DNA from: Candidatus Poribacteria bacterium
Lineage (GTDB): Bacteria; Poribacteria; WGA-4E; GCA-2687025
DNA: 64,000 nt
Reading direction: 5' to 3'
Assembly: GCA_028818695.1 (NCBI GenBank)
Contig: JAPPNK010000010.1
Span: forward strand, 1-64,000
Translations under genes and position numbers: made by a program
In this document: piece by piece, positions 2,342 through 45,623 of the stretch
How positions within the stretch are numbered: position 1 is the stretch's first letter
Layout of the letters: the number at the start of each line of letters is the position of its first letter
Notes under the pieces: generated by a model
The model's database searches: none
What the model saw: only the letters and a program-made list of their open reading frames with translations
Told to the model about the DNA's origin: nothing

Positions 2342-2786
2342 CATCAACCTCTTTATGAAAACCGACCGCGCAACAACGTTTCAGCGCAAACGAACCTCCG
2401 CCGCATGGCTATCATAATCTAAGCGGGCTTTTCGAGGCAACGTCTGTTCTCCGACCGCGTCCCTAGAGTTAGGAGATGTCGGCGTGCGAACGCGGACATC
2501 GGCAGCTCTTTCGCGGCGGTCTCCCAACTTTAGGCATGAGGCGCGATGTCCCTGACCTTATGTCTTAGTTGGGACATGTTGGCGGGCGGATGCGGACGGT
2601 TTCTGCGACGCCTCTAGATTCCCGCTTGCGCGGCAATGACGGTTTGGTTGGCGGCGGCTTTTCCATAAATAGAGAGATCATTCGTTCAACTGTCCCAACT
2701 TTAGGCATGAGGCGCGATGTCCGCCTTGCAATTCTCGGCGCGGGCGGCTACCATCATGAACCCAAAGGAATTGAGGACAACCGCCG
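2342..2786. repeat. Intergenic region built of repeats
   Basis: No gene is seen in this 445-nt gap. It contains a stretch (about 2369-2505) related to 19309-19437, a 30-nt perfect direct repeat (2522-2551 and 2693-2722, containing CCCAACTTTAGGCATGAGGC), and a dispersed hairpin core at 2617-2640 whose left flank (from about 2569) matches the flanks at 19409 and 48195. This is a nest of short interspersed elements, probably inert. Confidence 0.7.
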
Positions 2787-3230
2787 ATGGCTTATGTGAT
2801 TGCCGAGCCGTGCGTTGATGTGAAAGACCTTGCCTGCGTCGCGGTCTGCCCTGTGGACTGCATCTATGAGTTTGAGGGCGAAAACCAGCTGTTCATTCAC
2901 CCCGAAGAGTGCATCGACTGCGACGCTTGTCGACCTGAATGCCCCGTGGAGGCGATCTTTCCGCTGGAGGATGTCCCGTCTCAGTGGCAGCAGTATATCG
3001 AATTGAACAGCGTCATTTTTGAAACGCGCAGCGTTGACGAACGGGTCGGCGGCGGAGCGTTAGAGCCTGTCGAGGACGCGCAGCCTGCTGCCGTTGGCGT
3101 TTCCGCCGGCGAGATGGACGAATTGATTGCGCTGCTTGCCGCGGTCGCGTCCAAAGAGAGCTCCGCCGAGGCTGCGCTTGAGGATGTTCTCGCGGCGTTG
3201 GAAAAGCTCGGCGTTGAGATCGAATCCTAA
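2787..3230 (+). CDS. Seven-iron-type ferredoxin with C-terminal extension
   Basis: A cytosolic electron carrier. Residues 1-55 hold two cluster motifs: CVDVKDLACVAVCPVDC (C-x7-C-x3-C-P, the 3Fe-4S/4Fe-4S pattern of FdxA-type proteins) and CIDCDACRPECPVEA (C-x2-C-x2-C-x3-C-P). Unlike ordinary FdxA (about 105 residues) it has 147 residues; the last 70 or so are acidic, Ala/Glu-rich and unassigned. GAGG lies 10 nt before the ATG. The MDR oxidoreductase follows after 27 nt on the same strand, so the two may be co-transcribed. Confidence 0.85.
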   Translation: MAYVIAEPCVDVKDLACVAVCPVDCIYEFEGENQLFIHPEECIDCDACRPECPVEAIFPLEDVPSQWQQYIELNSVIFETRSVDERVGGGALEPVEDAQPAAVGVSAGEMDELIALLAAVASKESSAEAALEDVLAALEKLGVEIES

Positions 3231-3257
3231 ACCGAAGCCGCCCTGGGAAGAGATCCG

Positions 3258-4283
3258 ATGAGAGCGGCGATCTTTGCTGAACATGGCGGACCGGAGGTTC
3301 TGCGCGTCGAAGAGACGCCTGTGCCTGTTCTCAAACCGGGGGAAGCGCTGATAAAGGTGGAGGCGGGGGCGTTGAACCGTCTCGACCTTGCAGCGCGCAT
3401 TGGACGCCCTGAAGTGGAGCCGATGCCGCATATCGGCGGGCTGGACGTTGTCGGGACGGTCGCCGAGACGGGCGCGGATGTCCAAAACGTCTCGCCCGGC
3501 GACCGCGTCGCAATCTACCCGATTCTTTCCTGTCGAAATTGCAGCTTATGCGCGGCGGGCGATTCGGCGTTATGCCGGCGGCAGCGCGTGTACGGCTTTC
3601 AGACGCAGGGCGGATTTGCCGAGTATTGCGCCGCGCCTGCCGTCAATCTTGAGCGGGTCTCGCCGCTTGCGGACGCCGCCGAAACGTCTGCGCTTTCGAC
3701 AGCGTATCTGACCGCTTGGCGCATGCTTGTCCGCAACGCGCGCCTGAAACGCGGCGAATGGGTTCTCATCCATTCCATCGGCGGCGGAGTCGGCATGGCG
3801 GCGCTGGACATCGCGCGGTATCTTGGCGCGCGCGTTGTCGGCACCGCCAGCGCCGACGCGAAGCTCGAGACGGCGCTTAACGCCGGCGCGGAAGCGGTCG
3901 TCAACTACCGAAAAGAGAACGCCGCCGAGCGCGTCATGCAGATCACGAACGGGGCGGGCGCCGACGCGGTCGTCGATGTGATCGGAGAGGCGACCTGGGA
4001 AATAAGCCTCCAGTGCGCCGCTGTGAACGGGCGGATCGTAACGGCAGGGGTGACAAGCGGTCCTGTCGCGCCGACGAATATCCGCCATTTTTATCAGCGT
4101 CAATTGACGGCGATGGGGTCGGTCGTCGGGGGTCAGGCGGAGTTTCGAACGCTGCTGGCGTTGGCGTCATGCGGATTTTTGCGCCCTGTCGTCGCCCGCC
4201 GTTTTGCGTTAGACGAGATCCGCGCAGCCCATGAAGCGCTGGAATCCCGCGCCTGCGCCGGCAAGGTCGTCATAGAGCCTTGA
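3258..4283 (+). CDS. Zinc-type MDR oxidoreductase (alcohol dehydrogenase/quinone reductase-like)
   Basis: A 341-residue medium-chain dehydrogenase/reductase. It has a GroES-like N-terminal half, the structural-zinc cysteines CRNCSLCAAGDSALC near residues 92-106, and a Rossmann motif (IHSIGGGVGMAAL) near residue 172. The usual catalytic-zinc Cys is replaced (LNRLDLAAR), which points to the quinone-oxidoreductase-like branch that keeps only the structural zinc. Substrate is unknown. GGAAGAG precedes the ATG. It is downstream of the ferredoxin gene. Confidence 0.85.
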   Translation: MRAAIFAEHGGPEVLRVEETPVPVLKPGEALIKVEAGALNRLDLAARIGRPEVEPMPHIGGLDVVGTVAETGADVQNVSPGDRVAIYPILSCRNCSLCAAGDSALCRRQRVYGFQTQGGFAEYCAAPAVNLERVSPLADAAETSALSTAYLTAWRMLVRNARLKRGEWVLIHSIGGGVGMAALDIARYLGARVVGTASADAKLETALNAGAEAVVNYRKENAAERVMQITNGAGADAVVDVIGEATWEISLQCAAVNGRIVTAGVTSGPVAPTNIRHFYQRQLTAMGSVVGGQAEFRTLLALASCGFLRPVVARRFALDEIRAAHEALESRACAGKVVIEP

Positions 4284-23320: not shown

Positions 23321-25216
23321 ATGCAAGCCGCCTCCGCCGTTCCGTTTCAACCCGACGCCGGCAACGGCGACCCAACCCGATGGAGCCTCCCCACCCATGA
23401 CAACATCAAGGCGCGCCTGGGACAGGGCAGAGTCAGCGCAACGGCTCTTTCGCCGGACGGACGCTGGGTTCTTGTCGCCAGCGACGCGGGTCTCTGGTGG
23501 CATGACGCCGCGGACATGTCGCTCCACGCCTTCTGGGCAAAAGACGATACGGGTTATACGTCCGACGCCGCTTTTTCGCCGGACGGGCAAAAGATCGTCA
23601 CGGGAGGGAGAAAAACGGCGCGCGTCTGGGACATTCAAACAGGGCGCATCGAAACGACTCTAGAACATACATCCGACGGCGATGTCGGCGCGGTCGCCTA
23701 CTCTCCCGACGGGCGGCTCATCGCCGGCATTGTCGACCGCAAAAGCCTTGTTGTCTGGGACGCCGAGACGGGCGAGCTGCGGCGGCAGATGGAAGAACGT
23801 GTAGGCCGTTGGGGCGGTCCGCTTCTTTTCTCGCCCAACGGCCGCCTCATCGCTTGCTTGGCGGGCATCTCATGCGGAAGGGGAGCTGAATCCATCGCAG
23901 TTTTGGATGTCAACACAGGCGAGACCGCCGCCCATTTCACCAGCATGGATGGAGCGCTCAGCCTAAGCTTCTCCCCCTGCGGGAAGCTCCTTGCGTCAGG
24001 CGAACAGGGAGCCGTACATGTCTGGGATATACACAGCGGCAACCATATAGAGCGGTTTTCGGCAGGCGGGAAGAGCTGCATGCTTGTTTCCTACACGCCG
24101 TCGGGCGAGCTGCGCGTCGCGGAAGAATCCAGCGGCGGACAACAGCGCGTCTGGGACGTCAAACGGAACGAACTGATCTTCGAAGATGAGCCGCGCGCAG
24201 GGATTTTTGGCGATGCCTTTGTCGACGGAACGACGCTGCTTTATTTTTCGGACCTGGAATGGCGAATCTGGAAAGAGGGCGAAGGCGCGCCGCGCGTCGG
24301 TCCGCATACGTTCATTGTCATCTCGTTCGATCTTCGCTTCTTGACGGATGGAAAAACGCTCGCCTGTTTGTCCGCCGCCAATTCAGGGATCGTGCTATGG
24401 GATACGGAGGCGCCTCAAGCCAAACCGCGCGTCTTCAATCCGATCGGGGAAGGCTGCCACTCGATGGACATCTCCGCGGACGGCAATCTGTTCGCCGCAA
24501 GCGCTCTCAAGAAAGAGAACGCTGTTTATCTGCGCCGGATCGACGGCGGAGGGCAGACGGTTCGATACAAAGGAGAGACGGCGGCGGAGATATGGAGCTC
24601 GAAGCTTGCCATTAAGGGCGGCGTTGCGGCGCATGTTGACGAGGAAGATACGATCTATCTTTGGGACGCCCGAAGCGGCGAGCCGATTCGTACGATAGAC
24701 GCCGCCGATTCGATCTTTAGATTCTGTCCGAACGGCAAATATCTGGCGGTAAGGATTGAAAGAGAAGAGTGGGACCTGCTGGATATCCAAACGGGGGAGA
24801 AGGTCTTGGACAGCGAAGAGAATCCGCTGGACGCATACTCGTTTTGTTTTTCGCCGGACAGTCGCCTGATCGCCTCCTACTCCAAAGATGAGAAGCGGAT
24901 CGCGTTGTGGGACATTGAACGGGGCGCTGTCCGCTTGACGATCCCATGGCCGGACGATTGGGATGAAAGCCAGGCAGGATGCGAGTCGTACACCTTCACG
25001 CCGGACGGGCGTTATCTGGCGGGCTGCTACTCCAGCGGCATGAAAAAAGATGAGAAGACGACGCATATATGGCGCGTCGAGACGGGGGAGAAGATCGCCG
25101 CGCTGCCGATTCCGCATGCGCAGTCGTTTGCGTTTTCGCCGGACGGGTCGCTGCTGGCAGCCTGCGGATATGACGGACCGATACTGCTTTGGGAGTTGCG
25201 CCCCCCGCTTCGATAG
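23321..25216 (+). CDS. WD40 repeat protein
   Basis: A 631-residue protein built almost wholly of WD40 blades; SPDG and WD/W-D landmarks recur about every 40-45 residues (for example [38 protein letters not shown]). That is enough for two propellers. There is no signal peptide or membrane segment, so it is probably a cytosolic scaffold; partners are unknown. AAAGGAG lies 8 nt before the ATG. It is divergent from the secreted gene at 22265 and convergent with the NTF2-like gene at 25368. Confidence 0.85.
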   Translation: MQAASAVPFQPDAGNGDPTRWSLPTHDNIKARLGQGRVSATALSPDGRWVLVASDAGLWWHDAADMSLHAFWAKDDTGYTSDAAFSPDGQKIVTGGRKTARVWDIQTGRIETTLEHTSDGDVGAVAYSPDGRLIAGIVDRKSLVVWDAETGELRRQMEERVGRWGGPLLFSPNGRLIACLAGISCGRGAESIAVLDVNTGETAAHFTSMDGALSLSFSPCGKLLASGEQGAVHVWDIHSGNHIERFSAGGKSCMLVSYTPSGELRVAEESSGGQQRVWDVKRNELIFEDEPRAGIFGDAFVDGTTLLYFSDLEWRIWKEGEGAPRVGPHTFIVISFDLRFLTDGKTLACLSAANSGIVLWDTEAPQAKPRVFNPIGEGCHSMDISADGNLFAASALKKENAVYLRRIDGGGQTVRYKGETAAEIWSSKLAIKGGVAAHVDEEDTIYLWDARSGEPIRTIDAADSIFRFCPNGKYLAVRIEREEWDLLDIQTGEKVLDSEENPLDAYSFCFSPDSRLIASYSKDEKRIALWDIERGAVRLTIPWPDDWDESQAGCESYTFTPDGRYLAGCYSSGMKKDEKTTHIWRVETGEKIAALPIPHAQSFAFSPDGSLLAACGYDGPILLWELRPPLR

Positions 25217-32890: not shown

Positions 32891-35020
32891 TCAATCAGCG
32901 CGCCAGAAGCGAATGATTCGGTCATGTCCAGCGACGGCAATCTGTCCGTCCGGCGAAAACGCGACGGCGCATGCAACGATGTTACGCCCCCTCAATGTGT
33001 CGATCTGCTCCCCGGTCTCGGCGTCCCAGATCCGCATATTCTGATCGCCTCCGACGACGGCAACGAGCCGCCCGCATGGAGACAGAGTTCCGACAGGAGC
33101 GTTGGTGACGCCGTTGGTATGAATCGGCATCTTCCGCAGCAGCTCTCCCGTTTGAACGTCCCAGACATGCGCCGCGCGGTCTCCGTCGATGCTGACGAGC
33201 CGGCGTCCGCCTTCCATAAAGAAAACGGAGCGCGTCATCGGCGCATGCCCCTCCAACGAGCCAACCTCCCCGCCCGTCTCGGCGTTCCAAAGCCGAATCG
33301 TTTGATCCCAGCCGCCGCTGGCGATCGTTGTTCCGTCCGGCGAGTAAGCCGCTGTGCAAACCCTCTCCGTATGCCCCTCCAGCGTTCGGAGAGGCTCGCC
33401 CGTCTCGGCGTCCCAAACGCGCGCGGTCGCATCCGAACTGCCGGTGACGATAAAGCGGCCGTCCGGCGAGTAAGCGGCGGAACGAACCGAGTATTTATGA
33501 CCCGTCATCGTGTGAACGCAGCTGCCCGTTCGGATGTCCCAAACGCGCGCTGTTTTATCGTGGCTTGCCGTAACGATGCGCCGTCCGTCCGGCGAGAAAG
33601 CGGCGGAATACGCGAATCCATAATGCGACGCCCTCGTCAACAAGGAGTTTCCAGTAGCTGTAAAGTTTACGATGCGGTCTCCTGTTTCAACGTCCCACAG
33701 GCGGACGTTCTTGTCATGGCTTGCAGTGACGATCGTTCTGCCGTCCGGCGAAAAGGCTACGGATGCTATGAAGGCGGTATGGTCCGTTTGAATCTGCCTG
33801 GCAAATTCAAACGAGGAAGGCGGCGGCGGTGTCGGTGTCGGGGCAGGCGGAGGAGGAGAAGGCGGAGGCGGGGTCGGGGCGTAAGCGCGGATATCATGCC
33901 AGCGAATGCGCGCGCCTTTGCCGGCGGCGATGAGCGTCGTTCCGTCCGGCGAGAAGGCGGCGGTTCGAATCGGCTGCGCATTCCCGTTCAGCGTATGGAT
34001 CGGCTCCCCCGTTTCGCCGTTCCAGATGCGAACGCTTGCGTCCACGCCCGCGCTGGCGATGAGCCTGCCGCATGGCGAAAAGAGCGCCGTGTAGATCCAC
34101 TGCGTATGCCCTCTCAAAATTTGGATCGAGACGCCTGTTTCGGCGTCCCAGAGGCGGACGGTTTGATCGCCGCCGGCGCTGATAAGAATGCGCCCGTCTG
34201 AAGAGAAACCGACCGACTCCACGCTTTGCCGATGCCCGTTCAGCGTCCGGACAAGCGCGCCCGTTTCAGCGTTCCAGATGCGTATTCGATTGTCCTTGCC
34301 GCCGCTGGCGATCCGCTTGCTGTCCGGCGAGAACGCGACAGCGTGAACAGCTCCCAAACTTCCGCTCAGCGTCCGAATGCGTCCGCCCGTTTCAGCGTCC
34401 CATATCCATACGGTATTGTCCGAGCTGCCGCTGACGATGCGCCGTCCGTCGGGCGAATAAGCCGCGGAACGAACCGAAGCGCCATGTCCAGAAAGGTGAT
34501 GCAGCCTTACGCCTGTGTCGACATTCCAGATGTAGAGATCCGCGTCTTCGCTGCCGCTGACGATGAATTTGCCGTCCGGCGAATACGCGACAGCGCGGAC
34601 AGACTTCAGATGTTTGTTGAGCGTATGAATTCGCTCGCGCGTTTGAGCGTTGAAGATGCGCGTCGTCTTGTCCGATCCGCCGACAGCGAACGTTTTGCCG
34701 TCGGGTGAATAGGCGGCGGAGTAGATCCAAACTTCAGGCGGCGGCTGCGGCTTCTGCTCCTTTTTAGGAGGAGACTTCTGGTTCTGCTTCTTTTGTTGAG
34801 CGCCTGTGTTCCCGATCTTTTTGTCGTATGCCGCCTTTTTATCTGGTTTGCTGAGCGTATCATTCGCTTCATTGATCTCTTTGAGCTTCGCTTCGGCAAT
34901 TGGGTCTGGCTTTGCTCCAAGCCCATCTCTGTATTTTTTAGCGAGTTGCCTGTACGCTTTTTTGATCTTTTCTGGAGTCGCGTTTCGCGGAACTCCGAGA
35001 ATCTTATAGTAATCTTTCAC
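32891..35020 (-). CDS. J-like domain fused to two seven-bladed WD40 propellers
   Basis: A 709-residue cytosolic protein. Residues 1-70 follow the J-domain pattern ([42 protein letters not shown]), but the HPD tripeptide that stimulates DnaK is missing: the site reads [12 protein letters not shown] basic Gln/Lys/Pro linker leads to seven WD40 blades, a Pro-rich linker (about 385-405), and seven more blades. Probably a scaffold rather than an active co-chaperone. It starts in the last codon of the TPR gene (4-nt overlap, ATGA), so the two are made together. Confidence 0.82.
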
Positions 35021-36401: not shown

Positions 36402-37061
36402 TTAATCCGCGTTTGCCTTCTTCTTTCTATGTTTTCGCCAGATGAGCATTGTTGCTGGAAATAAGTTGTTGAGAAAATGTGAGACCGCCGTCACCCAAAA
36501 GGCGGTCCAAAAGCTGTCCTGCAGCCAGAAGGCGAACGCGAACCCTAAATACAGCCCGCCGGGGATCCCGGCGACAACCCCTACAGCAATAGACTCTCCA
36601 AAATGAATCAATGCAAACAGGAACGCAGAGGCAACAACCTGCGTTCCCAAGCCCAGCCCCATCCATTTTAGAGCTCCAATGATCAGCGCTTGAAACAGCA
36701 GCGTTTCAACGATGGGCGCAAATAGCAAACAGATAAACGCGAGTTCGGCTGAGCTTTTATCCTCAAAGCGCCCCTTCTTTTTAGGCACCTTGACCGCCTT
36801 TCGAATGAGAACTCGCGCGAAAAACAAGGGGATTTTCACAGCGAAGCCCTCTAATGTGATGAGAAGACAGAACGGCCATGGCGAAAACCGTTCATACCGC
36901 CTCAGCCAACCGACCGCCCACTCATGCTGATTGGTATACCGACCCAGCCATACAATCAGCGCTGGCGCGGCAAGCGCCGCACAGATCAACAGCGCCTGCC
37001 GGGCGCCGCTTTTCCCGCCGTTTTCATCGACGGACGGTTCTGCGTTCTCATTCTCGCTCAA
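36402..37061 (-). CDS. CPBP-like membrane protein
   Basis: A 219-residue polytopic membrane protein. Several segments are clear, and CPBP/Rce1-like signatures are present in weakened form: VETLLFQ at the E-x3-R position (Arg is missing), ALIHFG (His) and SHFLNN (H-x3-N). It resembles the last third of the upstream gene (shared FWTAFWVTA(V)S/AH and GIPGG(L)YLGFAFA). It overlaps that gene by 14 nt. Protease activity is doubtful without the Arg; it may be a structural or immunity-type relative. Confidence 0.65.
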   Translation of the reverse strand: MSENENAEPSVDENGGKSGARQALLICAALAAPALIVWLGRYTNQHEWAVGWLRRYERFSPWPFCLLITLEGFAVKIPLFFARVLIRKAVKVPKKKGRFEDKSSAELAFICLLFAPIVETLLFQALIIGALKWMGLGLGTQVVASAFLFALIHFGESIAVGVVAGIPGGLYLGFAFAFWLQDSFWTAFWVTAVSHFLNNLFPATMLIWRKHRKKKANAD

Positions 37062-38490
37062 CGGGCGGCTTCTCCTGTTCGCTTTTGCGTTTCTGTTCGA
37101 TTCGCTCCATCAGTTTATACGCGCCAATCAGCGCCGCCGTCGGCAAATTATGCAGCGAATGGGCAACCGCCGTTACCCAAAACGCCGTCCAAAATGACTC
37201 CCCCAGCCAATGCGCAAACGCGAAGCCCAAATAGATGCCGCCCGGCAAGCCCGCCGCGATGCCTGAACCCGCCGATTTGGTGAAATGAGCAAACGCAAAC
37301 AGAGCCGCCGCTGCCGCCGCCTGCGTTCCCAGATCCGCTCCAACAAGCTTCAACAGAACGACGGGAGCCGCCTGCATCGCAAACGTTTCATAAATGGGAG
37401 CCTCCGCCAGCGCCTGCGCAGCCCGCATGTTTTTGATTTGAAGGATCGGATCGCGTTTCTCTTTTTTCGATTGAGGTTTGCGTTTCTCTTTTTTCGGTGG
37501 AGTCGGCTTCTCTTCGCTCTCATGTTCTTCGCTGGTTTCAACAGGTTTAGGCGGCTTCAGCCGAGCGCGCAGTTTGGACAACCATCGCCGCAGGGCGCGC
37601 GAGCGGTCCACAAACGCCCCGATGGGAGCCAGCAGCAGGCTCACAACGACCGTCTCAAGCGCGATCCATAAGCAAAACGCCCACTGCCCATGCTTGCTGT
37701 ATCGAGCCGTCAGCCACTCAAACGCCCATGCATACGAGCTGCCGCTTAACAGAAACGCAAGCAAGCCAGCGCAAACAACCGCCAGCAGCGATCTCCAATG
37801 CCGAGCGCCTATTTTTGCGCCTTCCACCGCCGCCATGCCGAGCCTTAGATAAAGCGCGTTCAGCCCATGCGCGGACGCATGCAGCGCAAAAGCAAGCCCG
37901 AACGCGCCCGCCCATGAAACGCCGACTCCATAGATGAACGCGGTTGCCGCATAGAGATTCTGCGTTCCCCAGAACAGCCATGACCAACTCCCGCGGCGAT
38001 GAAAAAACAGCGCGGACAGGTAAACTGAAACGGCGAGCTGCGTCCCGGCGCCGGCGTCAAAGCGGCTTAAAACAAACATCGGAACGGCTTGAAGCGCCGC
38101 CGCGTATAAAGCGGGCGCGGCGATGAGGTCTATCAAAGCGTTTTTGACGGAGCGGCGGTTCGATGCGTGAAGCGAGGCTTTTTTGCCAAGTCCAAAAAAG
38201 CGCAGGACAGGAAGCAGATCGCGCAGATTCGGAAGCATCGACCCGCGCCCGAAGAGGCGCAGAAAGATCAAAAGCGCCGCGCCGACCGCAAACTTCTCAA
38301 CGGCGGCGCGCCAGCCGAAACCCCATGCCGACAGCCCCTCGTATCTGTTCATCCAGACATCCGCCAGCCCGATCAGGTCGATGAGCGGATTCAGCCGTAT
38401 GAGCAGCCCCAATCCGATCAAGGCGGCTGCAATGCGCAGCAGACGTTTGATCCTGTCCCTTGGCGGCGCCGTTTCGCCTTTATCGTACAT
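37048..38490 (-). CDS. Tandem CPBP-like membrane protein
   Basis: A 480-residue polytopic membrane protein with two related halves. Both carry GTQ(A/L)A...F and a helix with His; the second half has EAPIYETFAMQ, FAFAHFTKSAGSG, AGLPGGIYLGFAFA and AHSLHNL. The halves are joined by a charged linker rich in Lys, Glu and Pro (about 310-345). CPBP catalytic residues are only partly kept. It looks like a fusion or tandem duplication of the single-domain protein encoded downstream, with which it overlaps by 14 nt. Function is unknown. Confidence 0.6.
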   Translation of the reverse strand: MYDKGETAPPRDRIKRLLRIAAALIGLGLLIRLNPLIDLIGLADVWMNRYEGLSAWGFGWRAAVEKFAVGAALLIFLRLFGRGSMLPNLRDLLPVLRFFGLGKKASLHASNRRSVKNALIDLIAAPALYAAALQAVPMFVLSRFDAGAGTQLAVSVYLSALFFHRRGSWSWLFWGTQNLYAATAFIYGVGVSWAGAFGLAFALHASAHGLNALYLRLGMAAVEGAKIGARHWRSLLAVVCAGLLAFLLSGSSYAWAFEWLTARYSKHGQWAFCLWIALETVVVSLLLAPIGAFVDRSRALRRWLSKLRARLKPPKPVETSEEHESEEKPTPPKKEKRKPQSKKEKRDPILQIKNMRAAQALAEAPIYETFAMQAAPVVLLKLVGADLGTQAAAAAALFAFAHFTKSAGSGIAAGLPGGIYLGFAFAHWLGESFWTAFWVTAVAHSLHNLPTAALIGAYKLMERIEQKRKSEQEKPPVERE

Positions 38491-38667: not shown

Positions 38668-39237
38668 TTAGCCGTTGTTCTCGACGCGCGGCAGAACGAT
38701 TCCGACCTGTCCCTGGTATTTGCCGCGCTTGTCTCGGTAGGATGTCTCGCAGGGTTCGTCCGACTGCAGGAAAATCGCCTGCCCGATGCCCTCGTTGGCG
38801 TAAATTTTGGCGGGCAGCGGCGTCGTGTTGGATATCTCGATGGTCGCATATCCTTCCCACTCCGGCTCAAACGGCGTCACGTTCAGAATGATGCCGCAGC
38901 GGGCGTAGGTGGACTTGCCGAGGCAGATGACGAGAGCGTCGCGCGGGATGCGCCAATACTCCACCGTGCGCGCGAGCGCAAACGAATTGGGCGGAATGAC
39001 GCAGTGATCTGCCTTCATCTCCACAAACGCCTCCTGCTTGAAATCCTTCGGGTCGACGACGCTGGAGAAGACGTTTGTGAACACCTTCCATTCGTCGGCG
39101 ACGCGGAAGTCGTAACCAAAGGAGGAGACGCCGTAGCTGATGCATCCGCCGTCGCGTACCTGCTTGCTTTCAAACGGCTCAATCATGCCATGCTTCTGCG
39201 CCATGGTTCGGATCCACCTGTCCGATTTGATTGTCAT
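38668..39237 (-). CDS. dcd: dCTP deaminase (Dcd)
   Basis: A 189-residue enzyme that deaminates dCTP to dUTP for thymidylate synthesis. Typical motifs are [22 protein letters not shown], and the catalytic-Glu region [17 protein letters not shown] followed by GIGQAIF. ATG 39237 has AGGAG 5 nt upstream, and homologues are about this long. It lies directly downstream of two uracil-DNA glycosylase-related genes, so enzymes that make and detect uracil nucleotides are side by side. It probably serves housekeeping, though Dcd relatives also act in phage defence by depleting dCTP. Confidence 0.93.
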
Positions 39238-39372: not shown

Positions 39373-41469
39373 TTACATATCCAGCGTATCAATCGCCTGC
39401 TTCAAATGCTTAATCGCCTTTTTTGTTTTATCTTGCGATGTTGGAAAATGCGTCGGCAAGACCTTGATTCCGTCAAGGTGCTCATAGTCATGCAACTCGC
39501 CGATGAACTCATTGAACGCGTCTGGCGTTTCAATGAGCGCGCGCGACGCATATTCGCCCAGCGCGACAACAATCTGCGGTTGTATCAGCTCCAGTTGACG
39601 CAGGAAATACGGACGGCATGTTTCCACTTCTCTATCGCCCGCCTTCGATTTTCCCTTGCATTTCAGCGCGTAGGTGAGATACACAGCCTCGCGCCGCAAA
39701 CCGTTCTCTTCAATGATGCGGGTCACGTTCCGCCCAATTTTGTTCTCGCTGTCTTCAACGAACGGCGTTCCAGCCTGATCCGCTCCGCTATGCGGAATAT
39801 ATCCTAGAAACAGAATATCTGCGTCCTCGTTCCCCTCGCCAAAGACGACATTTGTTCTGCCGTTGTGAAGAACGCACCTTTGGCATCTGCTCGCCTCGTC
39901 TGCCAAGGCCGGCAGCTCCATCCCGCTGAACGGATTCACTTCTGCTTGCTCCTCCTGGTGCAGCGGATATTGCTCTTCTCGAAGAGCAATCACTTCGTCG
40001 CGCGCATCGGACGCATCCATCATATCCAACGCGCGAGCGATCAAATTCAAATTGAAGCGCGCATCCTCTGCCGACATGACTCCGTCTTGATCGACAAAGT
40101 TGCCGAAGATCGAACGAATCATGTAGAGCTGATGCTCAAGATCAGGGTTTTGAGAACCAGGTCCGCTTTGCTGAATCATTGGAAACGCGCGTATCTCCGC
40201 CGCGAGAGGATTGGCAGGTACGAATCCTTCCTCCTGCAGAAGCCGCTGCATCAGCTGCTCAAATTCATCGGCGCCGGCGATAGATTCTTTTGCATTTGAA
40301 CAGTAGATGCGTAGAGCTTTCCAGAAGACGCTCCCATTCTCATCATCTGGAACCCACTCTTCTGGGACATCGGTCCAGCGGTCATCGTAATGTTCGTCCG
40401 GCTCGTCAACCGGCGCAGTCGAAGTCGGATCGGATGAAACGGGGTTGAGGAGCGGATACGCCGTATCCCGCATCTCTTCTATTGTGGCCCGCGCTTCTCT
40501 CGCATTATGTCCAATCAGTTCCAGCGCTCGCGCCGCCTGCGTTAAGTGTCCGCGCACAATTTCAGCGTCCAAGAAGCAGCGTGTCTTCGGCGTCGAATAG
40601 ACCGCCGAGCGAAGCCGATACGCAAGGAATAAAAACTCTCGATCGCCTTCAAAGCGATCCGCAAACGAACGCTGCCAATTTTGATCAATGATTACAGGAA
40701 AAAACCAGATGTCGATGCCGACATTTGAGCCGTTGACGTTCTGATTCAAAACCCATTCTAAAGACGCTTGAATGGCAGCTGGTGTTTCGTCGCGCAGAAC
40801 CGTTTCAAACGGTACCCCGCCGCGCAACGAACCCAAAGACGGGCGCATTCGGATAAACTCGCGCATCTGCTTGCGGTAAATACTCAGCCCATCGAATAGT
40901 ACCCGCTCGCAACTGCCATCCTCCGCACCGCTATGGTCGCCGTCCCAAGCGGCGGCAAACTTCAATTCGCTCTCCGCTAATTCAGCCGCGCCTTCCAGCT
41001 CCTTCCGAAGATAACCTACTTCCATTTGCGCGCGCGGCGAACCGATCGCCTGTAGAGCGCGCTCTAAACGCTTCATATTATCGATCGTTTCCTCGGTGTC
41101 CAGATCCCCCTCGCCTGGGTGCGCCCATTCGACTCTCGCGTTCTGATTTATTTCCGAAATATCCGTTGTAAGCGACCAGTCATTCTGAAGATCCCGCTTA
41201 AACACGTTATTCCAGTGAGTTCGAGCAATATGATGAAAATCGCCGATATCCATGGCTGCAGACGCATCCCCGCCATTTTCTTCAAAACGGCGCATAAACT
41301 CCGAGTCATCCTTCTTTTCCGCTTTATTCAATGCATCGCATATGAGCGAATCAAGCGTGTTATCGCCCTTGACCTCCCTTTTCAACTTTTTCACTATAAA
41401 GCTGCGCATCTCCTTGCGGTAGATGTTCAGCGCCCTCGTCATCATGATATGGTTCGGCATCCCGCTCAT
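39373..41469 (-). CDS. Triple HEPN(Swt1)-like repeats fused to divergent family-4 UDG domain
   Basis: A 698-residue fusion I do not recognise as described. Three repeats (about 15-155, 195-340, 383-500) each open with a helix (L-x-IYRKxMR in the first two) and end with RALxxIG-like text; the first keeps the HEPN RNase motif R-x4-H (RVEWAH, 112-117) in a Swt1-HEPN context (FHHIARTHWNNVF), the other two have lost it. Residues 520-698 match family-4 uracil-DNA glycosylase with four cluster cysteines (529, 532, 604, 618), but the catalytic GEAPG is GYIPH and HPA is HFP. I chose ATG 41469 (GGAG at 6 nt). It lies between a normal UDG and dcd. Probably a defence or stress protein (inference). Confidence 0.6.
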   Translation of the reverse strand: MSGMPNHIMMTRALNIYRKEMRSFIVKKLKREVKGDNTLDSLICDALNKAEKKDDSEFMRRFEENGGDASAAMDIGDFHHIARTHWNNVFKRDLQNDWSLTTDISEINQNARVEWAHPGEGDLDTEETIDNMKRLERALQAIGSPRAQMEVGYLRKELEGAAELAESELKFAAAWDGDHSGAEDGSCERVLFDGLSIYRKQMREFIRMRPSLGSLRGGVPFETVLRDETPAAIQASLEWVLNQNVNGSNVGIDIWFFPVIIDQNWQRSFADRFEGDREFLFLAYRLRSAVYSTPKTRCFLDAEIVRGHLTQAARALELIGHNAREARATIEEMRDTAYPLLNPVSSDPTSTAPVDEPDEHYDDRWTDVPEEWVPDDENGSVFWKALRIYCSNAKESIAGADEFEQLMQRLLQEEGFVPANPLAAEIRAFPMIQQSGPGSQNPDLEHQLYMIRSIFGNFVDQDGVMSAEDARFNLNLIARALDMMDASDARDEVIALREEQYPLHQEEQAEVNPFSGMELPALADEASRCQRCVLHNGRTNVVFGEGNEDADILFLGYIPHSGADQAGTPFVEDSENKIGRNVTRIIEENGLRREAVYLTYALKCKGKSKAGDREVETCRPYFLRQLELIQPQIVVALGEYASRALIETPDAFNEFIGELHDYEHLDGIKVLPTHFPTSQDKTKKAIKHLKQAIDTLDM

Positions 41470-41583
41470 CGCATACTCCACCGGCATTGGTCGTTGAACA
41501 TAGACTATCTGAAAAGGAGAGGCGGCGCAAGTCGATATTCTTAACAAGCGATGAGATTCATACCGCTTTGTTCAAGGACTCTG

Positions 41584-41606
41584 GATTCCCGCTTTCGCGG
41601 GAATGG
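41584..41606 (+). repeat. Dispersed hairpin repeat
   Basis: A copy of the GATTCCCGC...GCGGGAAT element with GGACTCTG on its left, in the gap between the two UDG genes. The flank GACTCTG is shared with the copy at 19454. Confidence 0.85.
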
Positions 41607-41636
41607 CGCGGGGATGACGGGAAGGGCGCGAGATTT

Positions 41637-42395
41637 CTACCCTTGCCCCTTGCCTTTCTGCTCCAGCCCAAGCAGCTCCATCACCTTCTGCATATCCTCC
41701 CAAACATACCGCTTGCCGCCTGGGTTGCGCAGCAGATACGCCGGGTGGTAGGTCGGCATGACCTGAATGCCGCCGAGGGGATGGAACCGCCCCCGCAGGT
41801 TGGAGATGCGCTCCTTGCTGTTGAGCAGCGCCGCCGCCGCATAGCTGCCGAGCGCCACAACCGCCCTCGGCTGTATCAATCCAATCTGGCGCTCCAGATA
41901 CGGACGGCACCGCTCCGCCTCCAACGGCAGCGGGTTGCGGTTCTCCGGCGGGCGGCACTTCAACAAATTCGCAATATACACATCCTCGCGGCGCAAGCCC
42001 ATCGCCTCAATGATCTTTGTTAACAGCTGACCGGCGCGCCCCACAAACGGCAACCCCTTCAGATCCTCGTCCCGACCGGGCGCCTCCCCGACAAACATGA
42101 GGTCCGCGTTCGGATTGCCCGCCCCGAAGACCACATTCGTGCGCGTCGCATACAGCGGACACAGCTCGCACACGCTCGCCTCCGCAGCCAAAGCTGTCAA
42201 TGCGTCGACGGACGGCGCCGCCTGCGGTTTCTCTTCGCTTTTGGGAGGCGGCGGAGCTTCGTCTTGGACGCTGTCTGCCGACTTCGCTGCAAACGCGGCG
42301 TCCTTCTCAAGCGGTCTCGCCAGCTCCGCCCTCTCTTCAAGATGCCGCCGCACCGTTGAGAGTATCTGAAGATAATCGCCTCGGTCGTCCATCAT
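41637..42395 (-). CDS. Family-4 uracil-DNA glycosylase
   Basis: A 252-residue DNA repair enzyme that removes uracil from DNA. After a Pro/Ala-rich N-terminal 65 residues, the domain shows the four iron-sulphur Cys (CELC, LLKCRPP and the later ERCRPY), motif [24 protein letters not shown] and the His motif YHPAYLL. All catalytic residues are present. ATG 42395 has AAGGAG 6 nt upstream. It is part of a minus-strand run with ispG upstream and the HEPN-UDG fusion downstream; the fusion's last domain is its paralogue. Confidence 0.93.
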
Positions 42396-42427: not shown

Positions 42428-43609
42428 CTAATCCGCGTCCGGTTCCCGCCAAACGCCGTCCTGCTTCAACAGCGACACCAGCTCCTGAACGCCGTTCTCC
42501 TGCGGGATGCCCTGTTTTACCGCGTCGCGCCCGCGGTAAAGCGCGATCGTTCCGCCCTTGCCGACATACCCGTAATCCGCGTCCGCCATCTCCCCAGGCC
42601 CGTTCACAATGCATCCCATGACGGCGATGTCCAGACCGACCAGATGCGACGTCGCGTCCCGAACCTCGTTCAGCACCGTCGGAAGATCGAACTGCGTCCG
42701 CCCGCAGGACGGGCAGGCGATATACTCGACCGTCGTCTTGCGCAAGCCGAGCGACTGCAGTATTTCGTAGCAAACGGGGATCTCTTCCAGAGGATCCTCT
42801 GCCAGCGAAACCCGTATCGTGTCGCCGACGCCCTCCGCCAGCAGCGTTCCGATGCCGACGGCGGATTTGACCCGCGCGTATTGGCCGTCCCCCGCTTCCG
42901 TCACGCCGAGATGGACCGGGACGCGGATGCCCTCCTTGTCGGCTGTCTGCGCGAAGAGGCGGTTCGCCGCCATCATGATCGGCACGCGCGACGCCTTCAA
43001 CGAGACGATGATGTCCCGAAAACCATGCCGTTCGCAGATGCGCAGATACTCCATCGCCGACTCGACCATGCCCTCCGGCGTGTCGCCGTACATCACCAGC
43101 AGCCGCTCCGAGAGGGAGCCGTGGTTGACGCCGACGCGCATGGAGATGCCGCGGTCTTTGCAGACGCGGATGACGGGGAGCAGCTGCCGCTCAATCGCCT
43201 CCAGCTCCTCCTCCACTTCGGCGGGCGAATAATCGATGCTGCGCCCGATCGGTTTGCGGTACACAAACAGCCCAGGGTTGATGCGCACCTTGTCGACCGT
43301 CTTCGCCGCTTCAACGGCGATGTTGGAGCCTTGATGATGGACATCCGCGACGATCGGTATGTTTATTTTCATTTTCTTGAGCCGCCGTTTGATTTCGGCG
43401 ACCGCGCGCGTCGAAGCCATCGTCGGCGCGGTGACGCGCACGATTTCGCAGTTCGCCTCCGCCAGACCGACAATCTCCCGAACGCATGCGTCCACATTTC
43501 GCGTGTCTTCAGTAATCATGGACTGAACGCGCACCGGCTCGGAGCTTCCGACCCCGACATCGCCCACATACACAACGCGGGTCATTCGGCGCGGCGCAAA
43601 CAACTCCAT
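42428..43609 (-). CDS. ispG: 4-hydroxy-3-methylbut-2-enyl diphosphate synthase (IspG/GcpE)
   Basis: A 393-residue iron-sulphur enzyme of the MEP isoprenoid pathway that converts MEcPP to HMBPP. Start ATG 43609 has GGGAG at 7 nt. Landmarks: [38 protein letters not shown], and the cluster cysteines CPSCGRT and [11 protein letters not shown]. The length suits the bacterial single-domain form. It supplies precursors for the menaquinone side chain and hopanoid-type lipids whose genes lie at 54-59 kb. The rseP-like gene lies upstream, which is a common pairing. Confidence 0.95.
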
Positions 43610-43696
43610 TCGTCTCTCCCTTTCAGCATGAAACGCTACCCTACATGATGACCTCAAACGGCTCACAGTTCCACTTTTAGACGCTGCAGCGCTGTC

Positions 43697-43760: not shown

Positions 43761-45623
43761 TCAAGAAGCGGCGGCTCCCGCTTTCCGCCGGCGCGCCGCC
43801 ATCTTTTTCAAAAATCGCCTCAAAAATACAAACCCGACGCCGATAGCAACCCCTGTCAAGACGGCGGCAAAAGACCTTCTTAGCATGATGTACGCATACA
43901 AAGCGCCCAACAGGAACATGCCAAAAAGGAGTATATGCTTCCGCAGCTTCCTGCTAAGCGGACGCCCCCGCGCCAGCTCAATCGTATCCAAAAAGATGCG
44001 CCCGCCGTCCAATACCGGTATCGGAATCAGGTTTAACACCGCCAGTTCGATGCTGATCCATGCCGTCAGATACAGCGCGAAAAAGAGCGCCGTCCAGCTC
44101 AATCCGCCCGCCAAAACAGATTCGGCGACATTGCCGACGGTGAGCTTCCTTCCGTTTAAACGAACAAGCGTTATCTGATCCCCGCTGAAGAGAGGCTTCA
44201 ACACCGACAGGACGTCTCCCGCCGAATCGACCGTCATGGAGGCGCCTTTTCGAAACGCGCCGAAAAATCCGTACCGTTCATTCGGTCCCGCCCGCTCCGT
44301 CAACACGACGGCATCAATGCGCAAATCAGAAGACGATTCCGACAAGTTGGAGAGCAGCGTCAGACCCCTAATCTGTACGCTTCCGTCCACGATTGAGGGA
44401 AGAAGCGCGGAATTGACGCAGCAGCCGCATGCGCTGTCGGACTCTTTTCCAAGCGCCTTGCGAGCGAGATGACCGGTCCAAGCCCGCCCCCGCGTGAAAA
44501 GAGAGGCGGAGCGGGTAAAGGTCATCCGCAGCCGTTCAGACGCGGTCTGCTCCTGAACAGCGGCTCGAACGCCGCTGTAAGACGACGCCGAGACGCCGTT
44601 CATCGACTTCAAACGGTCGCCCACGCGAACATTTGCTAGCGACGGGTTCCGCTCCGCGTCCACAGCCGCAACCTTCACCGTCAGATGTTGAGAGGGGTCC
44701 GTCTCCACGGTTTGCGTTGTTCCGTCTGTTTCAAAAACCATGCGGACGCTCCTTGAACCGAGCGCCTTCAACAGCGCGGCGCGCGCGTCCTCAAGAGAGC
44801 GTATCGGCGCGCCGTCGATCTTAACCAGCCTCGATCCCTCCTTGACGCCCGCCTTGGCGAAGCTCTTCGACGCCGTTACCGCTTCAACATAGCCCAAATC
44901 CGACCCCGGCAGAAAGCCCTCGCCGGTGAACGCGGCAGGCGGACCCAAGCCTATCTGCTCAACATGCATGGCTTCACGCAAGCCTGGAGGCGGCGTCAGC
45001 TCAAACTCCAGCCGCTCGCCTCGGCGCTCCGCCTCAACGAGGGTTGGACGGCTGGGTTTGAGCGTCAGCTTTTGTTGAACATCCGCCCATGTTCGAACCT
45101 TGCGTCCGTTGACGGCGAGTATCCTGTCGCCGGATCGGATGCCCGCTTGCGCCGCGGGGGAGGCGTAGGCGGGGTCGTCCCAGTAGGAGCTGCGCTGCGG
45201 CGCGTTAACATAAACGGCGCCGACGACAGGCTCCCTGTCCGGCTGAAGAACGCCGCCCGCCGCAACCGCCGTAAAAAGAACGACCGCAACCAGTATGTTG
45301 ACGGCGGGACCGGCGGCGTACACAAAGATGCGGCGTTTGGGCGGCTCGCGGTCTAGGACGGTTTCTTCAAGGTCGTCGTACTCGTTCTCAGGCTCCGCCG
45401 CTGCAAAACGCACATAGCCGCCGGCGGGTATCATGGAGAGGCGAAACTCTGTGCCGCCGCGCGTGAAATTGAGCAGCCGCTTCCCGAAACCAATCGAGAA
45501 CACCGCCACCTGAACGCCGATCGCCTTCGCCGCTAAAAAATGCCCCAGCTCATGCAAGAAGATCAGCGCGCCCAGCATCAGAAATACGATCGCGACGCTC
45601 AATAGAGTTTCAAGCGCGCCCAT
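43761..45623 (-). CDS. rseP: RseP-like site-2 intramembrane metalloprotease with extra PDZ domains
   Basis: A 620-residue M50 membrane protease. The zinc motif HELGH is at 24-28 in the first membrane helix, and the LDGG motif ([14 protein letters not shown]) is near the C-terminus. Between them are two PDZ domains (about 118-210 and 230-300) and a third PDZ-like stretch (about 305-385: [20 protein letters not shown]), making it about 170 residues longer than E. coli RseP. The role in other bacteria is cutting anti-sigma factors and cleaning signal peptides. It lies just upstream of ispG. Confidence 0.9.

Follow-up and report, generated by a model that had tools for sequence, protein, structure and literature searches.

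A single open frame on the minus strand, preceded six bases 5' of its ATG (41469) by a ribosome-binding site (GGTGGAG, 41482-41476) and closed by a stop codon at 39373-39375, encodes a fusion protein of 698 aa in the window, by which we mean the whole stretch of 64,000 nucleotides analysed here. By Pfam, profile and pairwise comparison, the protein consists of three Swt1-type HEPN repeats followed by a C-terminal domain derived from a family-4 uracil-DNA glycosylase (UDG) (Table 1). A search of the same genome uncovered a second fusion gene, here named copy 2 (P0002; L007:7069-8232, corresponding to about 124068-125231 on contig C3 of G000), whose 387-aa product joins a single HEPN domain, with an intact RNAAAH motif, to an apparently dead UDG of the window type. 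The HEPN-UDG architecture of both genes is secure.

Table 1. Coordinates of the fusion gene, its parts and the neighbouring genes in the window.
Feature	Position	Strand	Evidence
Fusion gene, three Swt1-type HEPN repeats and a probable pseudo-UDG domain of family 4	39373..41469	-	Open frame, Pfam, neutral simulation
HEPN repeat 1, residues 1-172; sole repeat with R-x4-H	40954..41469	-	PF18731 above cut-off, alignment, AF2 model
RVEWAH, residues 112-117; HEPN dyad retained (R and H), with Val in place of the Asn	41119..41136	-	Alignment with 29 homologues
HEPN repeat 2, residues 183-350; dyad lost	40420..40923	-	hhalign; z against the HEPN of copy 2
HEPN repeat 3, residues 373-505; the most degenerate of the three, without the dyad, adjoins the UDG part directly	39955..40353	-	z and colinearity with the HEPN of copy 2; hhalign
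Domain derived from family-4 UDG, residues 517-698	39376..39921	-	PF03167; PDB 1ui0; alignment; Foldseek 1l9g; mutagenesis (PMC5387724)
dCTP deaminase gene (dcd), downstream of the fusion gene	38668..39237	-	PF22769, E 1.3e-32
Canonical family-4 UDG gene (UDG4), all motifs intact, just upstream of the fusion gene	41637..42395	-	TIGR00758, 221.7 bits against a cut-off of 125.3; alignment
ispG, part of the ancestral rseP-ispG-UDG4-priA cluster	42428..43666	-	Synteny in relatives
rseP-like M50 peptidase gene with PDZ domains, same cluster	43761..45623	-	Pfam; synteny

The first-pass annotation, made from the letters of this DNA, had read the three internal repeats as HEPN domains, and the comparisons bear this out. 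Repeat 1 matches HEPN_Swt1 (PF18731) over residues 12-143 with 35.5 bits, above the cut-off of 27.5, and the HEPN of copy 2 reaches 26.8 bits, just under it; for repeats 2 and 3, which have no Pfam match, homology was detected only by profile and pairwise comparison. Against the HEPN alignment, repeat 2 obtained an hhalign probability of 98 (E 3.9e-14), and the signal of repeat 3 alone was weaker (E 2.7e-4). Smith-Waterman comparison with the HEPN of copy 2 gave z = 43.6, 27.8 and 11.7 over shuffles for repeats 1, 2 and 3, respectively, while the window repeats compared with each other reached just 2.9 to 7.0. Moreover, repeat 3 and the UDG part are colinear with the HEPN and UDG of copy 2, with 40% identity in the joint alignment.

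The RVEWAH motif of repeat 1 aligns with the RNxxxH motif of the family. Among 30 sequences, R112 falls in a nearly invariant column and H117 in an invariant one, so that the dyad is conserved across homologues, a point on which the first-pass reading had been made to depend; the Asn column is occupied by V113. The R-x4-6-H dyad is thus present in repeat 1 and in copy 2 and absent from repeats 2 and 3, in agreement with the earlier suggestion that these two repeats are non-catalytic. In the AF2 model, repeat 1 (confidence mostly above 90) and the UDG core are confidently predicted, and much of repeats 2 and 3 is poor. No sequence-related HEPN structure was found in the PDB, and a Foldseek search with the whole models returned UDG and related structures among the 50 matches listed, leaving the HEPN fold without structural confirmation. 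The HEPN of the fusions may be an RNase acting as a dimer.

The C-terminal domain was recognized by Pfam as PF03167 at residues 543-696 (E 3e-20), matched family-4 UDG structures at E about 1e-22 (PDB 1ui0, E 1.5e-22) and, in the AF2 model, superposed on 1l9g with a TM of 0.78 by target length (Foldseek). It keeps the four Cys of the Fe-S cluster (C529, C532, C604 and C618), and the UDG-4 origin that had been proposed for it is supported. Mutagenesis of Thermus UDGa has established that E41, G42, E47, F54, N80 and H155 build the uracil pocket and that N89 positions a water (PMC5387724). In this numbering, the window domain carries E41Y, G42I, E47A, N80Y and H155F (Y557, I558, A563, Y600 and F675 of the protein), F54 alone is kept in the pocket, and N89 is missing from a loop that is shorter by two residues. 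The change of GEAPG to GYIPH was correctly described and lies at residues 556-560; that of HPA to HFP was rightly seen as an altered motif, but its His is not in the catalytic column, where F675 stands, H674 sitting one residue earlier.

Copy 2 likewise keeps the cluster Cys (C196, C199, C268 and C284) and carries E41L, G42A, F54Y, N80Y, N89D and H155P, with L224, Y264 and P334 at pocket or catalytic positions and E47 retained. Common to both UDG parts are therefore N80Y and the loss of E41 and H155, and neither copy contains the family-4 motif set GE(A/G)PG..E, N80 and H155. In Thermus UDGa, k2/Km falls from 2.4e5 to 94 for H155S (about 2,500-fold), to 270 for E41Q (about 900-fold) and to 2,000 for E47A (PMC5387724). 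Because the residues changed here are those that hold or cleave uracil according to these mutants, the C-terminal domain of the window protein is probably a pseudo-glycosylase, dead on uracil. The window fusion scores 101.7 against TIGR00758, less than the cut-off of 125.3. The same genome encodes another distant UDG-superfamily protein of 200 aa (L009:3847-4449), with the sequence GQAPSRADE, adjoining a 2-isopropylmalate-synthase-like gene.

The canonical UDG4 upstream of the fusion gene has all its motifs, and therefore the cell retains a live enzyme. Genomes of the same family and of the same class share, wholly or in part, the gene order rseP-ispG-(two genes)-UDG4-priA-(HAD hydrolase). In the present genome the break in this cluster falls precisely between UDG4 and priA, with one fusion gene at each broken end: on the window side, rseP-ispG-UDG4 is followed directly by the three-HEPN fusion, and on the other side, on another contig, copy 2 comes directly before priA and the HAD hydrolase gene, its stop codon abutting the priA ATG with zero gap. 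A misassembly at the split is unlikely because both fusion genes lie deep within long contigs. Between UDG4 and the fusion gene, at 41580-41636, there is a palindromic repeat-like sequence (GTCATCCCCGCGCCATTCCCGCGAAAGCGGGAATCCAG) that may mark a mobile or recombination site. Upstream of copy 2, two tandem, near-identical genes (L007:1416-2723 and 2754-4037), each encoding a membrane anchor and helical repeats, represent a recent duplication. We also considered dcd as a conserved partner and rejected it; it adjoins the fusion gene solely in this genome and lies on a contig other than that of UDG4 in G001, G002 and G005.

In a tree of 62 HEPNs, one branch has the four HEPN domains of both fusions together on the same side (support 94/92), and both fusion UDG parts stand together in a tree of 24 UDGs (85/83), both supports being under the strict threshold and the placement of the UDGs being made unsure by their long branches; an earlier set of UDGs gave 93/86. 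Since the HEPNs group together and so do the UDG parts, a single fusion origin for both genes is likely. Copy 2 has a short HEPN branch (0.16) and a long UDG branch (3.25), pointing to constraint on the HEPN and to a much-changed UDG. The branches of the window repeats measure 1.2 to 3.0, the window copy having changed throughout its length, and its GC content is 0.526 versus about 0.60 around the gene; the lower GC and the long branches suggest relaxed constraint. As both fusions flank the split UDG4-priA junction, the simplest account places the birth of the fusion in a housekeeping repair/restart operon and not in a defence island. An extra copy of UDG4 at this junction would have captured an N-terminal HEPN, the fusion gene would then have been duplicated, and a rearrangement between the two copies may have split the cluster, after which the window copy would have gone from one HEPN repeat to three, two of which would have decayed.

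No HEPN-UDG fusion was found elsewhere in the genome contigs searched with P0001, and a search of genome contigs with the HEPN alignment returned 27 loci, none with a UDG. The same held for IMG/VR, for 85 Poribacteria genomes, which contained no further fusion, and for the phyla represented by a Latescibacterota locus (64 genomes) and a Chloroflexota locus (400 genomes); inspection covered the 30 best HEPN loci of each search, and a distant fusion could escape. Phages and plasmids gave UDG or UdgX-type matches only, with no record covering 80% of copy 2. Five genomes of the same family had no Swt1-HEPN match at E <= 1e-8, and no orthologue of the fusion that would show conservation was found in another species. 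Longer, fusion-like matches upstream of UDG4 at L094 and L095 were rejected as chance extensions that cross stop codons. Within the limits of the genomes, phages, plasmids and IMG/VR searched, the HEPN-UDG architecture is new and confined to a single species.

In Poribacteria, the sponge-associated phylum to which the window belongs according to the names of related loci, the Swt1-HEPN is a mobile N-terminal module that we found fused to DUF4268, Mrr_N, DprA_WH, helicase and coiled-coil parts. The same genome also encodes a Swt1-HEPN-DUF499 ATPase (L008:5743-9108, 1121 aa) beside a putative DNA methylase (L008:2823-5471), of the Type-1 BREX-related kind, a system in which the HEPN has been read as a suicide effector (PMC12839542). 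A survey of HEPN proteins from 2013 lists DUF499, helicase, PIN and other partners and no glycosylase (PMC3710099), and the 2026 survey of BREX-related systems does not mention a glycosylase partner either (PMC12839542). The two fusions resemble the Swt1/Abi2-type HEPN-DUF499 ATPases (Ava_2192 type; Type-1 BREX-related) in their PF18731 HEPN, in its N-terminal position and in R-x4-H; however, the partner there is an AAA+ ATPase in a restriction-modification-like operon, whereas here it is a putatively dead UDG in a repair/restart cluster.

With the family-4 enzymes (UDGa; 1ui0, 1l9g and 4zby), the fusions have in common the fold and the four Fe-S Cys, their identity to poribacterial UDG4 being about 36-50%, but all six of the family residues E41, G42, E47, N80, N89 and H155 are replaced or lost in the window copy. 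UdgX is a relative of UDG that binds uracil DNA instead of turning it over. The fusion UDG part shares its superfamily fold but scores far under the TIGR03914 (UdgX) cut-off (88.4 against 189.95) and is devoid of the catalytic and uracil-binding residues. Compared by description only, Brig1, an anti-phage glycosylase that excises a modified base of the phage and is structurally close to family-4 UDG (PMC11078745), is catalytic, whereas the fusion UDG lacks the catalytic residues and has a HEPN attached. Also by description only, the defence protein DS-11 (CBS-HEPN) has a similar plan, with a ligand-binding domain regulating a HEPN RNase within one protein (PMC13092281), but its sensor domain differs from the fusion UDG.

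The reading that we favour, with a probability of roughly 40%, is that a HEPN RNase effector is anchored to a dead glycosylase serving as receptor for DNA or for a repair complex, the RNase activity and the trigger being presumed. The HEPN would be the effector, an RNase acting as a dimer, and the dead glycosylase a non-cutting receptor that docks on a DNA state (a lesion, a stalled fork or foreign DNA) or, alternatively, on the repair/restart partners encoded alongside (UDG4 and PriA). Docking would bring the HEPN domains together and lead to RNA cleavage, resulting in a shutdown linked to damage or infection. The 387-aa protein, with its intact RNAAAH, would be the active form, and copy 2 is likely the functional copy; the three-repeat protein of the window would act more weakly or have a scaffolding or regulatory role. 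Fusions of the same HEPN family to defence proteins in Poribacteria make an RNase-effector role plausible. In favour of this reading, the dyad of copy 2 is intact, R and H of repeat 1 are kept at columns that are invariant or nearly so family-wide, the frames are open despite divergence, and the fusions flank the broken junction of a class-wide cluster; against it, the window copy lacks the HEPN Asn and the dyad is lost from two of its three HEPNs.

The housekeeping context of PriA and UDG4 fits repair regulation as well as shutdown. It is possible, although we consider it unlikely, that the fusions are repair/restart accessories in which the pseudo-UDG modulates UDG4 or PriA at sites of uracil or stalled forks, the HEPN serving only as an RNA-binding or dimerising module, with no RNase action. 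Such a role would suit the placement between UDG4 and priA, in particular the zero gap between copy 2 and priA, as well as the missing dyads of repeats 2 and 3, and inactive HEPNs of eukaryotic Swt1 have been proposed as RNA binders (PMC3710099). The intact RNAAAH and the slowly evolving HEPN of copy 2, however, argue for catalysis, and the same HEPN module is read as an effector elsewhere.

A duplicated UDG4 that captured a HEPN could, alternatively, now be drifting with no selected function, at least in the window copy. The restriction to a single species, the long branches, the dyad loss in two repeats and the lower GC are all what such decay would leave behind. Yet when neutral drift was simulated to the divergence between the two copies, stops appeared in 100/100 runs, and therefore both genes, whose frames are fully open, have been kept as proteins; the four Cys retained in both copies and the slow HEPN of copy 2 also speak against decay, which we regard as quite improbable.

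No more convincing is the model of the first-pass annotation, according to which recognition of uracil, a modified base or an abasic site by the UDG part frees the HEPN RNase in abortive infection. The UDG fold and the Fe-S Cys are kept, as this model needs, and Brig1 offers the example of a protein near family-4 UDG in structure that excises a modified phage base (PMC11078745). The proposed sensing of uracil is nevertheless unlikely, judging from the pocket: the window copy keeps F54 alone, having other residues at E41, G42, E47, N80 and H155, and N80 is Tyr in both copies. Recognition of a modified base or an abasic site is conceivable at most. Nor did the expected setting in defence islands appear at either fusion locus: copy 2 abuts priA, the two copies sit where a housekeeping repair cluster has been broken, and their neighbours (UDG4, ispG, rseP and dcd for the window copy, priA and the HAD hydrolase gene for copy 2) are not defence genes. 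In PADLOC-DB, the window fusion has no match to any defence-system model. Finally, a decoy or guard, in which the dead UDG mimics host UDG4 and its binding by a phage UDG inhibitor would unleash the HEPN RNase, accords with a dead copy encoded directly beside live UDG4 but is very improbable, as the known UDG inhibitors Ugi and p56, to our knowledge, target family 1.

Returning to the receptor-effector reading, we would put forward tentatively, as a more doubtful extension, that the fusions define an RNA-cutting effector of a new class, with a dead Fe-S glycosylase, copied from host UDG4 in the UDG4-priA operon, as the receptor switching on a HEPN RNase and thus as a trigger for dormancy or abortive infection. 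If true, a catalytically dead repair glycosylase would here be the receptor to which an RNA-cutting domain is wired, and this genome would capture the copying of a housekeeping repair gene and its joining to a conflict-type effector. The architecture would also extend the known partners of the Swt1-type HEPN to DNA repair, and the copy with an intact dyad and the three-repeat copy together provide a two-gene test case for recognition by a pseudo-glycosylase. The presence of a second, better-preserved copy at priA moves the focus from the window copy to copy 2.

Elsewhere in the window, two genes encode large WD40 beta-propeller proteins of 709 aa (32891-35020) and 631 aa (23321-25216), the first with ten highly regular repeats. 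An Rce1-like CAAX protease gene at 36402-37061 overlaps a gene for a 480-aa protein (37048-38490) that resembles two more copies of the CAAX-protease domain; BLAST links both genes, and Pfam matches the first only.
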